Source: Elusimicrobiota bacterium (GTDB lineage Bacteria; Elusimicrobiota; Elusimicrobia; 2-02-FULL-39-32). Taken from it: a stretch of DNA of 52,239 bases. Of this stretch, positions 30,309-38,768 are shown piece by piece. Where the stretch lies: NCBI GenBank assembly GCA_021730935.1, contig JAKFYJ010000059.1, positions 1-52,239 of the forward strand, written 5' to 3'. The position numbers were made by a program, and so were the translations under genes. The stretch's first letter is position 1; each line of letters starts with the position of its first letter. The notes below the pieces were generated by a model. The model ran no database searches. It was not told where the DNA came from and worked only from the letters and a program-made list of their open reading frames with translations.

Positions 30309-31019
30309 TTATTGTTCTAAATATTTCTTTCTTTTCTGCGGAGAAAAACGCTCGATGGCGTATCGAAGCATGGTGCGCGGCATGGAGGAGGCGTGACGGT
30401 CTAAAAATTTTTCCTCAGATTCCTCGGAACACCTTTTCCCCACTTCCCTCAGCATCCAGCCCACCGCCTTGTGGATCAGGTCGTGTTCGTCTCGCAGGAG
30501 GAGTTTTGCGATCTTGAGCGTGGGAGCGGGGTTCTGATTTTTGATTTCATAAAAAGTGGCGATGATGGAGATCCTCCGTTCCCACACATTGGATGAGCGC
30601 GCAATCTTTTCAAGGACCGCTTTGTCTTTTCCGTCGAGGAACGCGCCGACAATTTGCTCCGCGCTGGAATCCACCAGGTCCCAGTTGTTGACGCGCTTTG
30701 CCATCCTCAGATAAAAATCATAAATTTCTTTCCTCTTCGCGGGTCCGGATTTTTGAAATTGTCCGACCAGGATCAGAAGCGCGCTCAGGCGCTCTTCATG
30801 AATTTTGCTTTCCAGGAGCGATTGAATGTCGGACAGGGACAAGTCCGGATATTTTTGGACAAGTTTTCTTTGCTGCGGAACCGTGATGCCGTAAAAAACG
30901 TCGCCTTCGCCGTATTGGCCTTTCCCCGTCTTGAAAAAACTTTGGCATATTTGAATTTTCTCCGGATTTTTTAAAGAAAGGATTTCTGAGCGAAAGAGAT
31001 TGAGGCGTGAAGGACTCAT
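30309..31019 (-). CDS. alkD: DNA alkylation repair protein, AlkD-like DNA glycosylase
   Basis: A 236-residue protein of the HEAT-like-repeat AlkD family, which excises alkylated purines such as N7-methylguanine and N3-methyladenine. Visible family signatures are NNWDLVDSSAEQI (near residue 110), containing the conserved Trp-Asp pair, WERRISIIATF, HKAVGWMLREVGKR and MPRTMLRYAIERF. The length is usual for the family. It is a single gene on the minus strand, starting 58 bp from the divergent TPR gene, and its stop lies 10 bp from the end of the tRNA. No signal peptide, so cytoplasmic. Confidence 0.92.
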   Translation of the reverse strand: MSPSRLNLFRSEILSLKNPEKIQICQSFFKTGKGQYGEGDVFYGITVPQQRKLVQKYPDLSLSDIQSLLESKIHEERLSALLILVGQFQKSGPAKRKEIYDFYLRMAKRVNNWDLVDSSAEQIVGAFLDGKDKAVLEKIARSSNVWERRISIIATFYEIKNQNPAPTLKIAKLLLRDEHDLIHKAVGWMLREVGKRCSEESEEKFLDRHASSMPRTMLRYAIERFSPQKRKKYLEQ

Positions 31020-31077: not shown

Positions 31078-32913
31078 ATGGATATGACTGCGCCTCAAAA
31101 GAATAAAGCGGTTTTGATCGCTGGGCTTGGAGCATTCTTAGCCGTTAACGCGTGGGCCGATGTTGTTTCCCAGCTTGATCAGGCCAAAGCTCTGCGGGCG
31201 AAAGGCGCCTATGAACAGTCGATCCCGTTTTATCAGCAGGCGCTCGTCAAGGATCCCGATAACGCGGATGTTCTGATTGAGTTCGCGCAAACCGCGGCCT
31301 GGGCGGGGCATTATGACAAAGCGTTGGAAATATATGATCAGGTCCTCAGGCTCCATCCCAACCATGCGGATGCCTATATAGGGAAGGCGTTCGTGCTCTC
31401 CTGGCAGAAAAAATTTGACGAAGCGGAAAAGAATTTTGAGACGGTAATTGCGCTTTCCCCGGATTATGAAGACGCCTATCTCGGCCTGGCTCGACTCTAT
31501 GCCTGGAAAGGGAATTTCAAGGATGCCGCGGCGCTTCTGGACACCTTCACGAAAAAAGAGAACCATAAAAATGATATCAGCCTGATCCTCACTCTGGCCC
31601 GAGCGCAAAGGGACGGAGGAGAAACGAAAGAAGCGATCGTGAATTACCGCCGCGCCCTGGCGGTTGATCCCTCAAGGCAGGACATCCATGCCGAACTGGG
31701 GCAAGCCCTCGCCCAGGCGCAGAAACTCGACGACGCCATCACGGAACTCGAGAAAGCCATCGCGGTCAAGTCTGCCAATGTCGACGATTTCGTGTCTCTG
31801 GGTCGGGTCTATTCATATAAAAACCGGCTGGACGATTCGAAGCGTCTCTATAAGGAAGCCCTCGCAAAGGATCCCAACAACCTGGACGCGCTGAACGGCC
31901 TGGCCAGGACGCACGGATATGCGCACGAGTGGGAAAATTCCCGAAAAATATTTATGGATGTGCTTAAAAAAAATCCTTCGAACATCGAAGCGAGGGACGG
32001 GATCGAGCGCCTCAACCGCGCGAAGGGGCCGGAATTTGACGCCAGATATAATTTCTTCAGGTCCGAGACGAATGATCCGGAAAGCGCTCCGCAGATTGAA
32101 TCTTTGGATTATGGCCCCGACGCGGAGTGGACGATCCGCACGGACCCGGACACGGCATTTTTTGTGCGGACGGGAAGGTTCGTCAGTCTCGAGAACAACC
32201 TCGACAGAAACATCACCCGAATCCGAACGGATCGGACCGAACTGGGGCTCGGAAGCCGGCTATTCCTCCCCGGAAAAATCCGCTTTGTGGGCCGGGCTGA
32301 TTGGATCCAGTTCAAGGACAATGGAGCGAACCAAGTCACGAGGGACGGCAAAGTTTCCGTTGGAGCCGGGTTCGCTGTGCTCGAGCGCGAGTGGGGCCGC
32401 CAACTTTGGAGCGCGTCTTTGTCGCAGGACGCTTTCGTCAGAAAACTCGCGGGAACCAACACCTGGGACCCCTCTCTGATAAACGCCTATGCGGTGGCCG
32501 ACGACATCAGCTGGACAGATGAGATTTCCACTCTTTTACAGGGCGGTCAGGATTTTTATCCGTATCTTTCTTCAAGCCAGGCGGACACCCTTGGAAGGAT
32601 CCGATATCGCCCGACAAAACTCCCCGCGGTCCTGGAGTTTCAGGCGAGATATCGAAGCGAGCCGGACCACTGGAACTATACCGGATTCCTGACCGTGAAA
32701 ACTGAAATCTTCAAACCCTGGCTCCGGATGGAAATCAAAACATCCCTCGACCGCGACACTTATGTCGGGACCACGGGATATGGGCTCGGCGGGCTCTTGA
32801 CCTGGAAATTGTCGCCCCGTTTTTCGCTTTATCAGACCGCGGCATACCGCAGAGACTTCGGGTTCAAAGGAAATTCGCTGTTCGGGAGCGCGCATGTCGG
32901 ATATGATTTTTAA
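31078..32913 (+). CDS. TPR-repeat protein with C-terminal outer-membrane beta-barrel
   Basis: 611 residues. A signal peptide (residues 1-27, ending NAWA) is followed by about eight TPR units (roughly 30-330), with repeats such as YEQSIPFYQQALVKDPDNAD, YDKALEIYDQVLRLHPNHAD and DDAITELEKAIAV. Residues about 345-611 are made of alternating amphipathic strands (FFVRTGRFVS, LGLGSRLFLPGKIRFVGRAD, GRIRYRPTKLPAVLEFQARY) and end in Phe (GSAHVGYDF), typical of an outer-membrane barrel. The layout recalls YaiO/PgaA-like TPR-barrel export proteins; the exact function is unknown. First gene of the exosortase operon; its end overlaps the next gene by 20 nt. No strong Shine-Dalgarno; the start at 31084 is an alternative. 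Confidence 0.75.
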   Translation: MDMTAPQKNKAVLIAGLGAFLAVNAWADVVSQLDQAKALRAKGAYEQSIPFYQQALVKDPDNADVLIEFAQTAAWAGHYDKALEIYDQVLRLHPNHADAYIGKAFVLSWQKKFDEAEKNFETVIALSPDYEDAYLGLARLYAWKGNFKDAAALLDTFTKKENHKNDISLILTLARAQRDGGETKEAIVNYRRALAVDPSRQDIHAELGQALAQAQKLDDAITELEKAIAVKSANVDDFVSLGRVYSYKNRLDDSKRLYKEALAKDPNNLDALNGLARTHGYAHEWENSRKIFMDVLKKNPSNIEARDGIERLNRAKGPEFDARYNFFRSETNDPESAPQIESLDYGPDAEWTIRTDPDTAFFVRTGRFVSLENNLDRNITRIRTDRTELGLGSRLFLPGKIRFVGRADWIQFKDNGANQVTRDGKVSVGAGFAVLEREWGRQLWSASLSQDAFVRKLAGTNTWDPSLINAYAVADDISWTDEISTLLQGGQDFYPYLSSSQADTLGRIRYRPTKLPAVLEFQARYRSEPDHWNYTGFLTVKTEIFKPWLRMEIKTSLDRDTYVGTTGYGLGGLLTWKLSPRFSLYQTAAYRRDFGFKGNSLFGSAHVGYDF

Positions 32914-33733
32914 GCGCCTTGTTTTCGCTGTCGGCTTTGCTCTTTCCGCGGCCTCGGCGGAAGCCGGGAAATTTGAGAAAGTCCTGGACTGGAACGGGAC
33001 GGAGATTGAGTGGACCCTTGAGGGAGGTTCGTTCATTAAAGATGGAAAACTCCAGGAGCGCTCTAAAAATATTGCCGTGCCCCCGGTCCCCGCGGGATAC
33101 GAGTTCCGGGCCTATCTGCTCTGGAGCGGAGAAACGGGGCATCTGGACGAATCGACGAAAAGAATAACGCTCGCAAATTCTCAAGGGACCCGAGAAATAA
33201 AAGCGCAAAAAATATACAGCGAACGATCAACGGGGATCATTTATACGGCTGTCGCGGATGTCACAGACTTTTTGAAAAAATCCAGAGGGCCGATGGTCCT
33301 CTCAGGCCTTCGCTCCGACGCCATGGATTACGCGCGCGGAAACCAGTTTTCCCAGGCAGGATGGACCTTATTCACTGTGCGGCGCAAAGGGACGGCTGGC
33401 CCCAAAAAAATCAGATTTTTTGCCGGAACAGAAGCGGTTGCTCCGGGAGAACCCTTTGAGCTCCCGCTATGGAATGAACCCAAAGCCGCGAGGATCATGA
33501 GGCTTGGCGTTTCCGGGGGCCACGGAATTGCTGGGAACGCCGGAGGAACTCTCGTTAACGGAAAGTCCGTCTCCGGCGGCGACGACTGGCGGGGCAGCAG
33601 CGGGGAACTTTGGGACTGCCACATTTATGACCTGTCGAAATGGCAAAAAAAACGCGCCTGGACAGCCGCATTTGACCCCCTCCTTGAATGGATTTTTCCC
33701 TCTTGCGCGATCGCCGAATTCCTGTTATATTGA
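32894..33733 (+). CDS. Secreted beta-sandwich protein of unknown function
   Basis: 279 residues with a signal peptide (IFKRLVFAVGFALSAASAEA). The middle has the pattern YEFRAYLLWSGE ... IIYTAVADVTDFLKKSRG ... SQAGWTLFTVRRKG ... KKIRFFAGTEAV. That is like a recurring secreted bacterial domain in which AYLYWxG, (Y)xAxADVT and AGWSLVVVY motifs mark a jelly-roll (DUF3344-like proteins); I make that link from memory. The C terminus (PLLEWIFPSCAIAEFLLY) is hydrophobic. GGGAG five bases before the ATG at 32894 supports this start inside the end of the TPR gene. The stop is four bases before the PEP-CTERM gene. It probably acts in the periplasm or at the surface. Confidence 0.6.
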   Translation: MSDMIFKRLVFAVGFALSAASAEAGKFEKVLDWNGTEIEWTLEGGSFIKDGKLQERSKNIAVPPVPAGYEFRAYLLWSGETGHLDESTKRITLANSQGTREIKAQKIYSERSTGIIYTAVADVTDFLKKSRGPMVLSGLRSDAMDYARGNQFSQAGWTLFTVRRKGTAGPKKIRFFAGTEAVAPGEPFELPLWNEPKAARIMRLGVSGGHGIAGNAGGTLVNGKSVSGGDDWRGSSGELWDCHIYDLSKWQKKRAWTAAFDPLLEWIFPSCAIAEFLLY

Positions 33734-33737
33734 AAAG

Positions 33738-34088
33738 ATGAAACGGCTGAGCGGGATCCTGCTTTTTCTCCTGATTTTTGGGCTGAATCCCTCTCAAAAA
33801 CTGTTCCGCGGCATCGCCACGAACCTGGCGTTCGCCGACAGCAAAAGCGATGATCAAAAAGCCGCAGAAGAAGCGGCAAAAGAAGCAGAAAAGGCCGCAC
33901 AAGAAGCCGCAAAAGAGGCAGAGAAAGCGGCCAAAGAAGCTGAAAAAGAAAAGGAAAAAGGGGATGACAAAGACCCCAAAGATCCCCCCACTGTTCCTGA
34001 ACCTTCGACCGCAGTTCAATTCGGCGCAGGCGCCCTGGCCATCCTGACCGCGGCCTATCTCATCAAACGCAAACGGAGCAACGCATAA
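33738..34088 (+). CDS. Small PEP-CTERM protein with Lys/Ala/Glu-rich helical stalk (exosortase substrate)
   Basis: 116 residues. A signal peptide (MKRLSGILLFLLIFGL ... NLAFA) is followed by heptad-like repeats of AAKEAEKAAQEAAKEAEK and KAAKEAEKEKEK (about residues 38-75), then an acidic-basic spacer KGDDKDPKDPP. A complete PEP-CTERM sorting signal ends the protein: VPEPST, a hydrophobic helix (FGAGALAILTAAYLI) and a basic tail KRKRSNA. It should be cut and attached by the exosortase encoded next to it. The frame is open further upstream to 33504, but that part lies inside the previous gene; the ATG at 33738 gives a proper signal peptide. Its stop codon overlaps the proposed exosortase start. 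Confidence 0.85.
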   Translation: MKRLSGILLFLLIFGLNPSQKLFRGIATNLAFADSKSDDQKAAEEAAKEAEKAAQEAAKEAEKAAKEAEKEKEKGDDKDPKDPPTVPEPSTAVQFGAGALAILTAAYLIKRKRSNA

Positions 34089-36778
34089 GCGACACTCTGC
34101 GGTGGCTCTGGATTTCCTGGCGCGAGAGCCAATATTATAGCCACGCATTCCTCCTGATCCTTTCCTCATTCATCGCCGCGATCGTTCAATACCAGCGAAC
34201 CCCGCAAGCCCCCCTGCATCCAAAAAGCAAAATCATCCATTTGACCGCGGGTCTCGTCCTTGCCTGCGCCGGGCTGTATACGGGCCTCAACGCTTTTAAA
34301 GTTTGGGGCGCAGTCCTTTTCGTTTACGGCTCTTCGGCGTTCATCCTCGACGAAAAAATGCAGAACAGCCTGAAAACTTTCCTGATGCTCTTCGCCTGCG
34401 CCGTGCCCTTTCCATTTCTGCCGCAAATCCTCTATGCTCTCCAAAGTTCCGTGACAGCCTGCTCCGCCGCGCTGTTGACGCCTTTGGGCATCGTCAGAGA
34501 AACGCAGGGGAACCTGGTGATCCTTGGAAACGGCGAATCGATTTTTGTCGCAGAGGCCTGCAGCGGATATAAATCGATCCTGATTTTTTTCACTCTGACC
34601 CTCCTGGCTTCCTGCTTGCTTAACTTCAAGCCCAAAGAGCGTTGGCTGATGCTGGCGCTTTCCCTTCCCTGCGCATGGACTCTCAATCTCGTCAGGGTCG
34701 CGTGCGTCCTGACGATCGGGAATGTCTGGGGAGCAGGACGGGCATTCGCCGTCTGGGAATTCAGCGCAGGCATATTTTTTTATATGATTGGGATGATCTC
34801 CATGGCGGGAATATTCTTGACGCTTAAAAAGCATCTGAGAGGCGCTCTCCTCATCCTGCCCGCGTTCATTTTCATTTCCGTCTGCAGACTCAGCGCCGGC
34901 CAGAATTATACGGACACGAGCGCATACACTTTCACCTCACACGAAGGGCGCTGGCAGACGGTCTCCGACCTGTTTCATCAATCCAATATGTCGCGGCTCC
35001 CGATGCGGCTCGGGTCCTGGAACGGAGTGAATGTCCCGATTTCGGACCCTCTCCCCTTTTATCTCCGTCGCTACAGACACGATAAAACAAAGACTTATCT
35101 TTATCTCCAGCCTGTTTATGGGCGCGAAGAGACAGCGTTTCACACGGCGGAAGTCTGTTATATCAACGCGGGCTGGAAGATGGATGAGCGGGGATATAAA
35201 ACGCTTTCGGTCCGGGGACAAAATCTCCAGGTCCGATACGCCACTGCGATTTTCGGAAACCACCGCCACCTTGTGCTTTATTGGTATGCCTGGCCGGCAT
35301 CCCGCAGAGCGATCACTGATGGGTGCCTGATGTTCCGGATTTCCGTGGAAATTCAGGGTTCTGAATCTGCCGCGCTTGAGTTGGCATCCGATTTCATATC
35401 CGAAATGTCCCGGGCGCAGTTCGGAACGGCGTCCGCAGAGGTCCAAAAAATTCCCAAACCCGATCTCTCCGTTTGGAAAGCAACCATTAAGTCTTCCATA
35501 TCCAAGTCTCAGACTCTTCCCCCCGAACTTTCCCATAAAAGGGATTTGGCTCTCTCATGGATTTTGGGCCAGCTCGTGCCCAATGGCGTGGTGAGGAAAC
35601 CCTCGGGAGAGAGGCGGAATTTAATTTTAAGTTACCGCTCAGACCCTTCCTCGCCCGACTATAAATATGTGTTCTCCAAATCCGCGCTTTATGACAACGC
35701 TCTGGCGGCGATCGCGCTCACGATCTCAGGCCATGAGGCGAGAGCGGCGGACATCTTGAGCACGGTTGAGAGGATTTCCGACGAGAATGGGGATCTCTTT
35801 TTCTCGTTCAACACACACAACAGCTGGCCGAACGCGAAGGATTTTGACGGAGCCGTTGTGCGGACCGGAGCTTCAGCCTGGGCGGGATATGCGGCCTGTT
35901 TCCATCTGGCCTATCGGCTCATGAAAGACCCGAACCTTTTCACAACAGACCGAGGCGCCCTGCAGATTTTGAAATTCGCGGAAACCACGGCAAACGCTCT
36001 CATGAAGAGGCAAGTCACAGCGGAGGGCGACATAAGAAAAGGATTGGTTACAGGAGGGAAAGGTTCTTACACGCTGAGAGTCAAAGACGGCAAAGTGACG
36101 GAAGAATTTGTGAACGGCGAAGTGACCTGGTGCAGTGTTGAGCACAACATCGATGTTTATTTTTTCCTCACCGCGCTTGGGCGGGTGTCCGGAGACGCGA
36201 AGTGGACCCAAAAAGCCGATGAAGTCAAGGCCGCCCTGATCTCCTCGTGCTGGAACCCAAGGCTGAAACAGTTCAACCGGGGCATAAACATCCTTCAGGC
36301 AGACAGGTCAGAAGCCCTGGATTGCGCCTCATGGGGAAGCGCAGCGCTCTTGTCTTTCGGCGAGACGGAAAAGGCGGCGGCGGCTCTCAAAAGTATGGTC
36401 AAATTTAAGAGTCGGGATTCGGGACGCTGGGGGTTTAAACCTTATTCTTCCGGGACTGTATATGAAGAACCTGCCGCGCAAAAACATTTTTTTCCCGACG
36501 GAAATTCCGGTTTATGGCAGAACATAGGCATGGTTTGGCCTGAAGGAACATTAGGCGCTGGGCTGGCCTGCTGGAAAGGCGGTGACAGGAATCAAGCGCT
36601 TGCCATCCTTAACGAAATCGGAAAACTTCAGGATGAAACAGGAGGGATCGCCTACGCCACGCGGCAATATAAATTTCAGTTTTCAACTTCCCCATCCGCC
36701 GCTTCCGCCGGCTGGTTTCTCATCCTTGCCGGAGTCCTCGAAGACCCCATCGCCGACGCCCTGTTCTGGGACAGATAA
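34085..36778 (+). CDS. Exosortase-EpsI(DUF3485)-alpha/alpha-toroid glycosidase-like fusion
   Basis: A three-part protein of about 897 residues. Part 1 (1-265) is a multipass exosortase: WRESQYYSHAFLLIL near the N terminus, VAEACSGYKSI with the catalytic Cys near residue 159, and NLVRVACV with the conserved Arg near 204. Part 2 (about 270-445) is an EpsI/DUF3485 domain (HTAEVCYINAGW, LVLYWYAW). Part 3 (about 480-897) looks like a six-hairpin (alpha/alpha) toroid as in many glycosidases: YDNALAAIALTISGHE, FDGAVVRTGASAWAGYAACF, CSVEHNIDVYFFLTALG, GLWQNIGMVWPEGTLGAG. The conserved YSHAF segment lies before the first canonical start (TTG 34241). The only start with a well-placed Shine-Dalgarno (GGAG 34075-34078) is an ATA at 34085, overlapping the previous stop; CTG 34097 is an alternative. 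Function of part 3 unknown; its stop is 4 bp from the convergent macB stop. Confidence 0.8.
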   Translation: MSDTLRWLWISWRESQYYSHAFLLILSSFIAAIVQYQRTPQAPLHPKSKIIHLTAGLVLACAGLYTGLNAFKVWGAVLFVYGSSAFILDEKMQNSLKTFLMLFACAVPFPFLPQILYALQSSVTACSAALLTPLGIVRETQGNLVILGNGESIFVAEACSGYKSILIFFTLTLLASCLLNFKPKERWLMLALSLPCAWTLNLVRVACVLTIGNVWGAGRAFAVWEFSAGIFFYMIGMISMAGIFLTLKKHLRGALLILPAFIFISVCRLSAGQNYTDTSAYTFTSHEGRWQTVSDLFHQSNMSRLPMRLGSWNGVNVPISDPLPFYLRRYRHDKTKTYLYLQPVYGREETAFHTAEVCYINAGWKMDERGYKTLSVRGQNLQVRYATAIFGNHRHLVLYWYAWPASRRAITDGCLMFRISVEIQGSESAALELASDFISEMSRAQFGTASAEVQKIPKPDLSVWKATIKSSISKSQTLPPELSHKRDLALSWILGQLVPNGVVRKPSGERRNLILSYRSDPSSPDYKYVFSKSALYDNALAAIALTISGHEARAADILSTVERISDENGDLFFSFNTHNSWPNAKDFDGAVVRTGASAWAGYAACFHLAYRLMKDPNLFTTDRGALQILKFAETTANALMKRQVTAEGDIRKGLVTGGKGSYTLRVKDGKVTEEFVNGEVTWCSVEHNIDVYFFLTALGRVSGDAKWTQKADEVKAALISSCWNPRLKQFNRGINILQADRSEALDCASWGSAALLSFGETEKAAAALKSMVKFKSRDSGRWGFKPYSSGTVYEEPAAQKHFFPDGNSGLWQNIGMVWPEGTLGAGLACWKGGDRNQALAILNEIGKLQDETGGIAYATRQYKFQFSTSPSAASAGWFLILAGVLEDPIADALFWDR

Positions 36779-36782
36779 AAAA

Positions 36783-38768
36783 CTATTCGTATCTCAGCGC
36801 TTCAATCGGCGAGAGGAGAGACGCCTTCCTCGCGGGCCAAAACCCGAAAAGGACGCCCACGCTCGCGGAGAAAATGAAAGCGAGCAGGACGGAATCCATC
36901 GACACGACAGCGGCCCAGCCAGCGAACTTCGATAAAAAAAGCGAGACGGAAACGCCGAATATAATCCCGCAGATGCCTCCCAGCGTTGAGAGGACAGCGG
37001 ATTCGATCAAAAATTGGGAGAGGATCGCGCGCCTTGGAGCGCCCACGGCTTTCCGGAGGCCGATTTCGCGCGTGCGTTCGCTCACGGAGACCAGCATGAT
37101 GTTCATGATGCCGATGCCGCCCACGAGAAGCGAAATTGCGGCCACGATTCCGAGCAGGAGCGTGAAGGTCTGAGTCGTTCCAGAGAGAGCGGCCTGGAGG
37201 TCCGCCATATTGCGGATTTCGAAATCGTCGTCTTTATAGTCCGGCAGATGATGTTTCCTCCGCATCAGGGCCTTGATGTCCGCCATCACTTGCGGAATAT
37301 TTTCCCCCTTGTCGCACTCGACGAAAATGGTGTTCAAATAAATCATCCCGAAAGCGCGCTTCATGGCGGTATTCAGAGGGATCAGGGCCATGTCGTCCTG
37401 GTCGCGGAACCCCGTGGAACCCTTGATGGGGAGCACGCCGATGACTTTGAAATTGATGCGGTTGAGCTTGATGATTTTGTCGACGGGATTTTCTTTGCCG
37501 AAAAGATTGTTGATGACGGTCTGGCCCAAAAGAACCACGCGCTCTTTCCTCTGGTCTTCCTGGTCCGTGAAAAACCGTCCGTAATAGGGCATGGAATTGC
37601 GCATAGAAGCATAAAGAGGCGTGGCTCCAGTCACCTGCGTGTTCGCGTTCTTGGCGCCATAAACCACCTGAGCGTTGCCCTGAACATTCCCTTCGGCTCT
37701 CACGACATGAGGGACCGAGGAAACCAGTTTAACATCGTCGAGCGTCAAGCGGCTGACAGACCCGGACGCGCTCCTCACCCCTCCGACATTCGGACTTTCG
37801 GGACGGATCATGAGGAGATTGGAACCCAGACTCGCGATGCGGGATTCTATGGCTTTCTGCGCTCCCTGCCCCACGGCGAGCATGGCGATGACGGCCGCGA
37901 CCCCGATCAAAATTCCCAGCATGGAAAGAGCGCTTCTCACTTTATTTGAGGCCATCGCGCGGATGGCTGAGCCGCCATATTCTTTGAACTGGGAAAGGCT
38001 GACGGGCACTGAAGGCCGAGACGGTGCCGCGGCCGTGATTTTGGGTTTAACCGCCAGGGTTTGAACCGATTTTGAGCCTCTCTGGCTGTGTCCAGCGTCG
38101 TCGGAAACCACCACTCCGTCTTTCAATTTTATGATGCGCCTGGCGTGTTCGGCGATGTCCTGCTCGTGCGTGACCATAATCACGGTGATGCCGCTTTTGT
38201 TGAGGAGTTCCAGCTGGCGCAGAATGTCTTCGGCTTGATCTGAAGCGAGGTTTCCCGTCGGCTCATCCGCAAACAAGATCCTGGGACGATTCACGAGGGC
38301 GCGCGCAATGGCCACGCGCTGCTGCTGCCCGCCGGAAAGCTCGTTGGGCTTGTGAAGCATACGGTCTGTCAAGCCCACATCTTTCAGAAGTTCTCTGGCC
38401 CGCTCTTCGCGGTTGGGGACAGCGGAATAAATCATCGGGAGGATGACATTGTCGAGCGCGGAAGTTCTGGCCAGGAGATTGAACATCTGGAATATAAACC
38501 CGATGGTCTTGGAGCGTATGGCGGCGCCTTCGTCGTCGGAAAGTTGGGAAACATCCAGGCCGGTCAGCAGATAAGTCCCCGCCGTCGGACGGTCCAAAAG
38601 TCCCAGGATCTGCATCAAGGTGGATTTGCCCGAGCCGGAAGGACCCATGATCGCGACGAACTCGCCTTCTTCGATCTCCAGATCAATCCCTTTCAGGATC
38701 TTGAGTTCCTCTTTTTCTTTGCCGATCCAATAAGACTTGGTGATGCCTTTGATGTCGATGATGGCCAT
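36783..38768 (-). CDS. macB: MacB-like ABC transporter, fused ATPase and permease
   Basis: 661 residues. The N-terminal ATPase (1-230) has Walker [10 protein letters not shown], the signature [15 protein letters not shown], Walker [12 protein letters not shown] and the switch His in VTHEQD. A linker of about 40 residues leads to the permease: a TM helix near 280, a large periplasmic domain (about 310-530, MacB_PCD type) and three C-terminal helices with FtsX-like [20 protein letters not shown] and [12 protein letters not shown]. MacB-type pumps drive export of peptides, macrolides or lipoproteins through a TolC channel. Last gene of the operon; its start is 9 bp after macA. Confidence 0.93.

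Follow-up and report, generated by a model that had tools for sequence, protein, structure and literature searches.

The PNAG (Pga), cellulose (Bcs), alginate and Pel systems of exopolysaccharide secretion use a GT2 synthase. A layout known from such synthase-dependent systems is a TPR-bearing outer-membrane barrel with a periplasmic glycosidase, and PgaA and PgaB work together (PMC9384988). The exosortase, or EpsH, system was described with an EpsI protein, substrates that end in a tripartite PEP-CTERM tail and a link to exopolysaccharide; the enzyme motifs are given as C-x-G, N-x-x-R and H-x-x-x-G and the number of substrates as a median of eight (Haft 2006, PMC1569441). For archaeosortase A, the catalytic residues are Cys, Arg and Arg (PMC9263693). 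Rhombosortase cassettes place the enzyme gene next to its sole target (PMC3237569).

Here, we analyzed a locus in the window, which is the whole of contig C16 (52,239 bases) from a draft genome of 2.71 Mb that is 95.5% complete. The locus resembles the EpsH system in its exosortase fold, an EpsI domain that is fused or encoded downstream, the tripartite tail and the exopolysaccharide link. It differs in having a single substrate, where the median is eight, a fused glycosidase-like domain (predicted) and no named Xrt class above cut-off. The PEP motif is degenerate in most relatives, and the third catalytic residue or the Cys is replaced in some of the enzymes. As in the Pga, Bcs, alginate and Pel systems, a TPR-bearing barrel and a putative periplasmic glycosidase are found together, as judged by profile, homology and predicted fold. 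In contrast to those systems, there are an additional HEAT partner and a beta protein, and an exosortase with its substrate, which the accessible part of the source does not describe for them (PMC9384988). The enzyme gene adjoins its sole target as in the rhombosortase cassettes, but the enzyme belongs to another family and is surrounded by a whole conserved glycan-handling set. Literature searches for an exosortase together with PEP-CTERM, a glycoside hydrolase or EpsI, a synthase-dependent glycosyltransferase and a covalent polysaccharide acceptor named no such locus among the matches listed, and none were found for exosortases in Elusimicrobia.

All four genes of the locus, encoding the barrel, the beta protein, the small protein and the exosortase fusion, lie on the plus strand between 31078 and 36778 (Table 1). 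The barrel gene runs 20 bases into the beta gene, the small gene follows the beta gene after four bases, and its stop codon overlaps the likely exosortase start by four bases (ATAA), in agreement with an earlier note on this DNA, which had described the genes as overlapping or abutting in one operon. The left neighbour is a DNA-alkylation-repair gene (30309-31019, minus strand) and the right neighbour a MacB-type ABC transporter gene (36783-38768, minus strand). Inspection of these flanking genes revealed no glycosyltransferase adjoining the window locus, and the statement of the earlier note that polysaccharide-synthesis genes are missing next to it was thus correct. A recent foreign origin was considered from base composition and rejected, since a GC content of 54.1% in the locus and 53.2% in the window gives no signal. 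Elsewhere in the window, positions 1-30046 on the minus strand form a single open reading frame of 10,015 codons with a signal-peptide-like beginning, suggesting a giant secreted protein.

Table 1. Features of the exosortase locus, in window coordinates
Feature	Position	Strand	Details and basis
TPR and outer-membrane beta-barrel protein	31078..32913	+	611 aa; candidate exit pore
Secreted beta protein, jelly-roll-like	32894..33733	+	279 aa; marker gene of the locus type
Small substrate protein	33738..34088	+	116 aa; signal peptide, Lys/Ala/Glu-rich middle, PEP-CTERM tail (TIGR02595)
C-terminal sorting tail, PPTVPEPS with TM helix and basic end	33981..34085	+	TIGR02595; tail model of the locus type
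Likely exosortase start: GGAG, six-base spacer, ATA	34075..34087	+	Sequence
Exosortase domain	34094..34816	+	PF09721, alignment of 10 proteins, hydropathy
EpsI (DUF3485) domain	34967..35290	+	PF11984, E 3.1e-12
Predicted (alpha/alpha)6 glycosidase-like domain	35507..36775	+	AlphaFold model and structural comparison

The exosortase matched PF09721 with 98.7 bits (E 4.8e-28, cut-off 25.7). It is the first of three parts of a fusion protein, followed by EpsI and a C-terminal part, in a frame that stays open for 897 codons and ends at 36778; among the loci of this type, only the window has the exosortase fused to the EpsI-glycosidase. The first standard start codon is a TTG at 34241, yet homology begins at about 34094, and there is no in-frame ATG, GTG or TTG between the stop at 33998 and 34241. 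The gene likely starts with an ATA at 34085, with GGAG six bases upstream. The ATAA found there is one base from the usual overlap, and an ATG at this position would form ATGA. The ATA could reflect a sequencing error, a rare start codon or decay. The exosortase fusion recognized in the earlier note was thereby confirmed, with its start amended to the likely ATA and its unnamed C-terminal part now predicted to be glycosidase-like.

Two of the three motifs are kept in the window exosortase, CSG with the Cys at 34559-34561 and NLVR with the Arg at 34694-34696, and H-x-x-x-G reads E-x-x-x-G, with a Glu at 34757-34759 where His is expected. In an alignment of 10 exosortases, the Arg was present in all, the Cys in eight and the His in eight, the exceptions being Glu in the window and Lys in L033. 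An exosortase is expected to have eight TM helices, the first of them ahead of the Y-x-H loop; hydropathy showed that this helix is absent in the window protein and present in 9/9 others. By sequence, the protein is a member of PF09721, and by its active site it is a variant. None of the nine singly scored exosortases reached the curated cut-off of a named class (XrtA-XrtZ, cyanoexosortases), and the generic TIGR04178 alone passes. Ser replaces the catalytic Cys, with Arg and His kept, in the exosortases at 567-1445 of L016 (a Nitrospinota MAG) and 5590-6423 of L073, which could be either natural serine exosortases or inactive ones.

The lack of an ATG, of the first TM helix and of the His suggests that this copy may be altered or inactive. 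We give somewhat less than an even chance to the explanation that the exosortase is decaying or no longer cuts, that the protein now mainly serves as a membrane-held EpsI-glycosidase and that the PEP-CTERM tail is left over. The ATA in place of ATG, the absence of the helix that 9/9 relatives have and the Glu as third catalytic residue would all fit with this. However, 897 codons are open, Cys and Arg are kept, the Shine-Dalgarno spacing is good at the ATA and the small protein retains an intact PEP tail. Variation of the third residue is also seen elsewhere, with Lys in L033 and Arg in archaeosortase A (PMC9263693). A frameshift fusion in which the small protein supplies the missing helix was rejected by reasoning on topology, because the PEP-CTERM helix runs from out to in and would invert the catalytic side.

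The small protein scored 17.9 and 19.5 bits with TIGR02595 in two scans, in both cases above the cut-off of 16, as expected for the 116-residue PEP-CTERM protein of the earlier note; with PF07589 it was below that model's cut-off. Whole-genome profile searches found one exosortase and one PEP-CTERM protein above the TIGR02595 cut-off in the window genome. No other PEP-CTERM protein passed the cut-off in this count, which the earlier note had called for, and its proposal of a single dedicated substrate held. A second TIGR02595 match, on C29, was not counted as it had 13.6 bits, below the cut-off, and an internal stop. A PEP tail arising by chance or mis-annotation was rejected because the tail stands beside the only exosortase of the genome. 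A tail model for the locus type, built from nine small proteins, was then run on six genomes and gave one strong tail each in G000 (the window genome), G332, G340, G633 and G415 and two in G341, a genome with two exosortases. No further tails were found in the six genomes by this model, with everything else at E 0.2 or worse. The strong matches were themselves members of the model, and the result therefore speaks to the absence of others. There was one tail per exosortase locus in 6/6 genomes, with exosortases counted in G000, G332, G340 and G341 only.

Two of nine small proteins passed in the TIGR02595 scan, those of the window and L033, the latter being the sole one among the eight relatives. 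Across the loci, the small proteins are 98-199 residues long. They share an N-terminus that is hydrophobic, a motif rich in Pro, which contains Glu in most of them, and a TM helix with a basic end. When inspected by eye, the middle was rich in Lys/Ala/Glu in the window, Arg/Gly in G332, Gly/His in G340, His/Gly/Glu in L018 of G341 and Arg/Asp in G415, and the small proteins of the G629-G633 group had a common conserved segment in its place. The middle thus differs completely between genomes and, on this comparison of sequences, what is conserved is not the Lys/Ala/Glu rod. The rod-like peptide that the earlier note had placed at the centre of the system was accordingly given up as its key feature.

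The set of beta, small, exosortase and EpsI genes was found at 11 loci in 10 genomes (EpsI is off the contig at L071), and among the hosts are MAGs with the labels Elusimicrobia, Nitrospinota and Deltaproteobacteria. When 84,980 species genomes were scanned once with an EpsI-glycosidase alignment, three loci were obtained, namely L016 in a Nitrospinota MAG, L017 in an Elusimicrobia MAG (its contig is also that of L012) and L018 in a Deltaproteobacteria MAG (G341), all with the gene order beta, small, exosortase, EpsI-glycosidase. G341 carries a second set, L033 (6574-9499), without the glycosidase domain and with a divergent small gene (a canonical PEP-CTERM) on the opposite strand. Among 368 genomes of the phylum of G341, the beta profile matched nine, of which seven had strong matches at eight loci, all beside an exosortase, and this search added L070-L075. 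Weak beta matches in G355 and G409 were not counted, as no exosortase was present in the DNA read. Some loci are incomplete: L071 ends in the exosortase, L075 in the EpsI-glycosidase gene, L074 and L075 in the barrel and L016 in the beta gene. The search for the gene set in other genomes, suggested in the earlier note, thus found it conserved. The note had set many PEP-CTERM proteins in the genome and no joint conservation of the genes against its own proposal; we found one such protein and a conserved set.

Within the phylum of the window, PF09721 exosortases were present in 6/340 genomes and the beta protein in 2/340 (G000 and G332), exactly those two with this type of exosortase. This rare and scattered occurrence is what a moving or often-lost module would be expected to show. 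The beta proteins of distant loci are ~24-35% identical, so any transfer would be old. Similarity matrices of the components agreed partly, with Spearman coefficients of 0.19 for barrel and glycosidase and 0.87 for beta protein and barrel. In two genomes of the same class, at 4465-7904 of L014 (G020) and 7421-10692 of L015 (G075), an exosortase gene overlaps that of a long protein ending in IPEPE, a TM helix and basic residues, which by eye looks like a further dedicated pair of enzyme and target; the preceding gene is presumably PadR-like. In the same phylum, L013 (6737-14303, G326) is an exosortase locus of the usual type, with an EpsI-like gene and, by eye, at least two proteins with IPEPA/VPEPA tails.

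The EpsI domain of the window scored 47 bits with PF11984 (cut-off 26.1), and this family matched 9/9 locus proteins at E <= 10. Beyond EpsI, no Pfam family was above cut-off in the window protein. An AlphaFold model derived from four relatives had a mean pLDDT of 70, with higher values across much of the C-terminal part, and was compared with solved structures. It aligned with the dextran dextrinase 9ju0 over 333 residues (Z 32.9, rmsd 3.1), with the methylmannose polysaccharide hydrolase 7qsj over 313 residues (Z 31.1) and with 5z3b (Z 27.9). The part beyond EpsI is thus predicted to be an (alpha/alpha)6 glycosidase-like domain, which we take to be of a different fold class from PgaB. The fold matches span several glycosidase families (GH15, GH63 and MmpH-like were compared), and searches of PDB sequences with the domain gave no match even at E 10. 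D258, D307, E407, D411, D461, D467 and E541, numbered as in the 618-residue model, are invariant in 9/9 proteins; E407 and E541 are candidate catalytic glutamates, chosen by invariance only. Distant matches to the domain (28% and 35%) were seen in L005 and L006, in proteins of 909 and 933 aa from G011 and G032.

The TPR repeats of the barrel protein matched their families with E down to 4.8e-36, and matches to the PgaA and BcsC models were weak and below cut-off. The window barrel is 28% identical to the L012/L017 barrel. Outer-membrane barrels typically end in F, and F is the C-terminal residue here. A role of the TPR-barrel as an exit, proposed in the earlier note for a peptide, is plausible, but the protein resembles a polysaccharide exit of the PgaA/BcsC type equally well. 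The beta protein has no Pfam family and is predicted to be mostly beta (pLDDT 76.6). Naming it by fold was rejected, and it was left unnamed because the Foldseek TM to double jelly-roll capsids was ~0.25 and VIA Z was < 8 for all solved folds compared. Its homologues adjoin an exosortase at all 11 loci.

A GT2 polysaccharide synthase adjoins the set at 6/8 loci where the flank is on the contig (L017, L018, L070, L071, L072 and L073), and none adjoins it at the window or L033; L016, L074 and L075 are cut by contig ends. At L072, a GH94 phosphorylase and a CBM30/CBM11 protein are encoded upstream, which points to a beta-glucan at that locus. The earlier note had viewed the locus as self-contained, a small system for the export and anchoring of a rod-like peptide, with the TPR-barrel as exit or partner and no part for polysaccharide. 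The single exosortase and single PEP-CTERM protein of the window genome, the lack of an adjoining synthase at the locus and the core of beta, small, exosortase and EpsI genes at L033, which stands with GT2, barrel and glycosidase domain all absent within 16 kb, are in line with that reading. It is nevertheless quite unlikely in our judgement, as the glycosidase-like domain is predicted in the same polypeptide as the exosortase, GT2 adjoins the set at 6/8 loci, a HEAT+GT2 pair is present on contig C13 of the window genome and the Lys/Ala/Glu middle is not kept between genomes.

The GT2 on C13 (8820-10184) was found with a profile built from two GT2 proteins, those of L017 and L018, and is a full-length relative of both (E 9.8e-146). 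Its gene overlaps a HEAT gene, with histidine kinase- and response regulator-like genes upstream, and no barrel gene was recognized in the 19.9 kb of C13 read. This HEAT+GT2 region (L032, 4304-12009) has counterparts in the phylum, where the GT2 recurs widely, often with a HEAT neighbour. At E <= 1e-60, the GT2 was present in 22/96 related genomes, for most of which no exosortase had been found. In 14 regions read (GT2 was among the called genes in 13), none of the genes beside it encoded a homologue of the beta protein, the exosortase or EpsI. Such a GT2 was absent at E <= 1e-30 from three of six genomes searched (G340, G630 and G632, all drafts). The same-genus genome G001 (79% complete) has GT2 and HEAT and no exosortase match and, together with the occurrence of GT2 mostly without exosortase, this means that the link in trans in the window genome may be accidental. 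The pair on C13 could then belong to an unrelated, older polysaccharide system, with the window locus acquired separately for another glycan or none. The scatter of the exosortase locus over phyla is also consistent with this, but we regard it as unlikely given the full-length relationship to GT2s that adjoin the set in L017 and L018 and the C13 region read, with no barrel gene recognized.

The explanation that we favour, and hold to be fairly probable, is a synthase-dependent exopolysaccharide system that comes with an exosortase of its own and a single substrate, the locus representing its export and processing half. In this model, the GT2 synthase, in the window genome that of C13 with its HEAT partner, would make the glycan and translocate it through the inner membrane. 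In the periplasm, the glycosidase-like domain would trim it, and the TPR-barrel would release it to the outside. The small protein would be exported by Sec, its tail keeping it in the inner membrane until the exosortase cuts it at the tail, after which it would leave with, or become part of, the glycan layer, and the EpsI domain and the beta protein would assist. Direct support comes from the gene content, its conservation, the single tail per exosortase and the predicted folds. We infer the partnership with the C13 GT2 in trans, the sequence of steps and what becomes of the small protein.

As for what exosortases attach their substrates to, a 2025 paper goes no further than to suggest, for cyanobacteria, a covalent link to polysaccharide as one possibility (PMC12188702). 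For the small protein described here, the glycan would be the obvious candidate acceptor. As a rather unlikely hypothesis, the exosortase could cut the small protein and join the C-terminus so formed to the glycan while it grows or once it is trimmed, and a peptide-tipped polysaccharide would leave through the TPR-barrel. If so, one exosortase-EpsI-glycosidase chain would unite the cutting of the peptide with the trimming of its glycan acceptor, and it would represent a new class of exosortase whose acceptor is known. Because the system combines a single enzyme with a single tiny substrate and, in several genomes, a clustered synthase, it offers a simple place to test the attachment target. 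The results also point to an exosortase class that has no name so far, for which the beta protein serves as a marker gene and whose tails current PEP-CTERM models miss, and they record natural exosortases in which Ser replaces the catalytic Cys.
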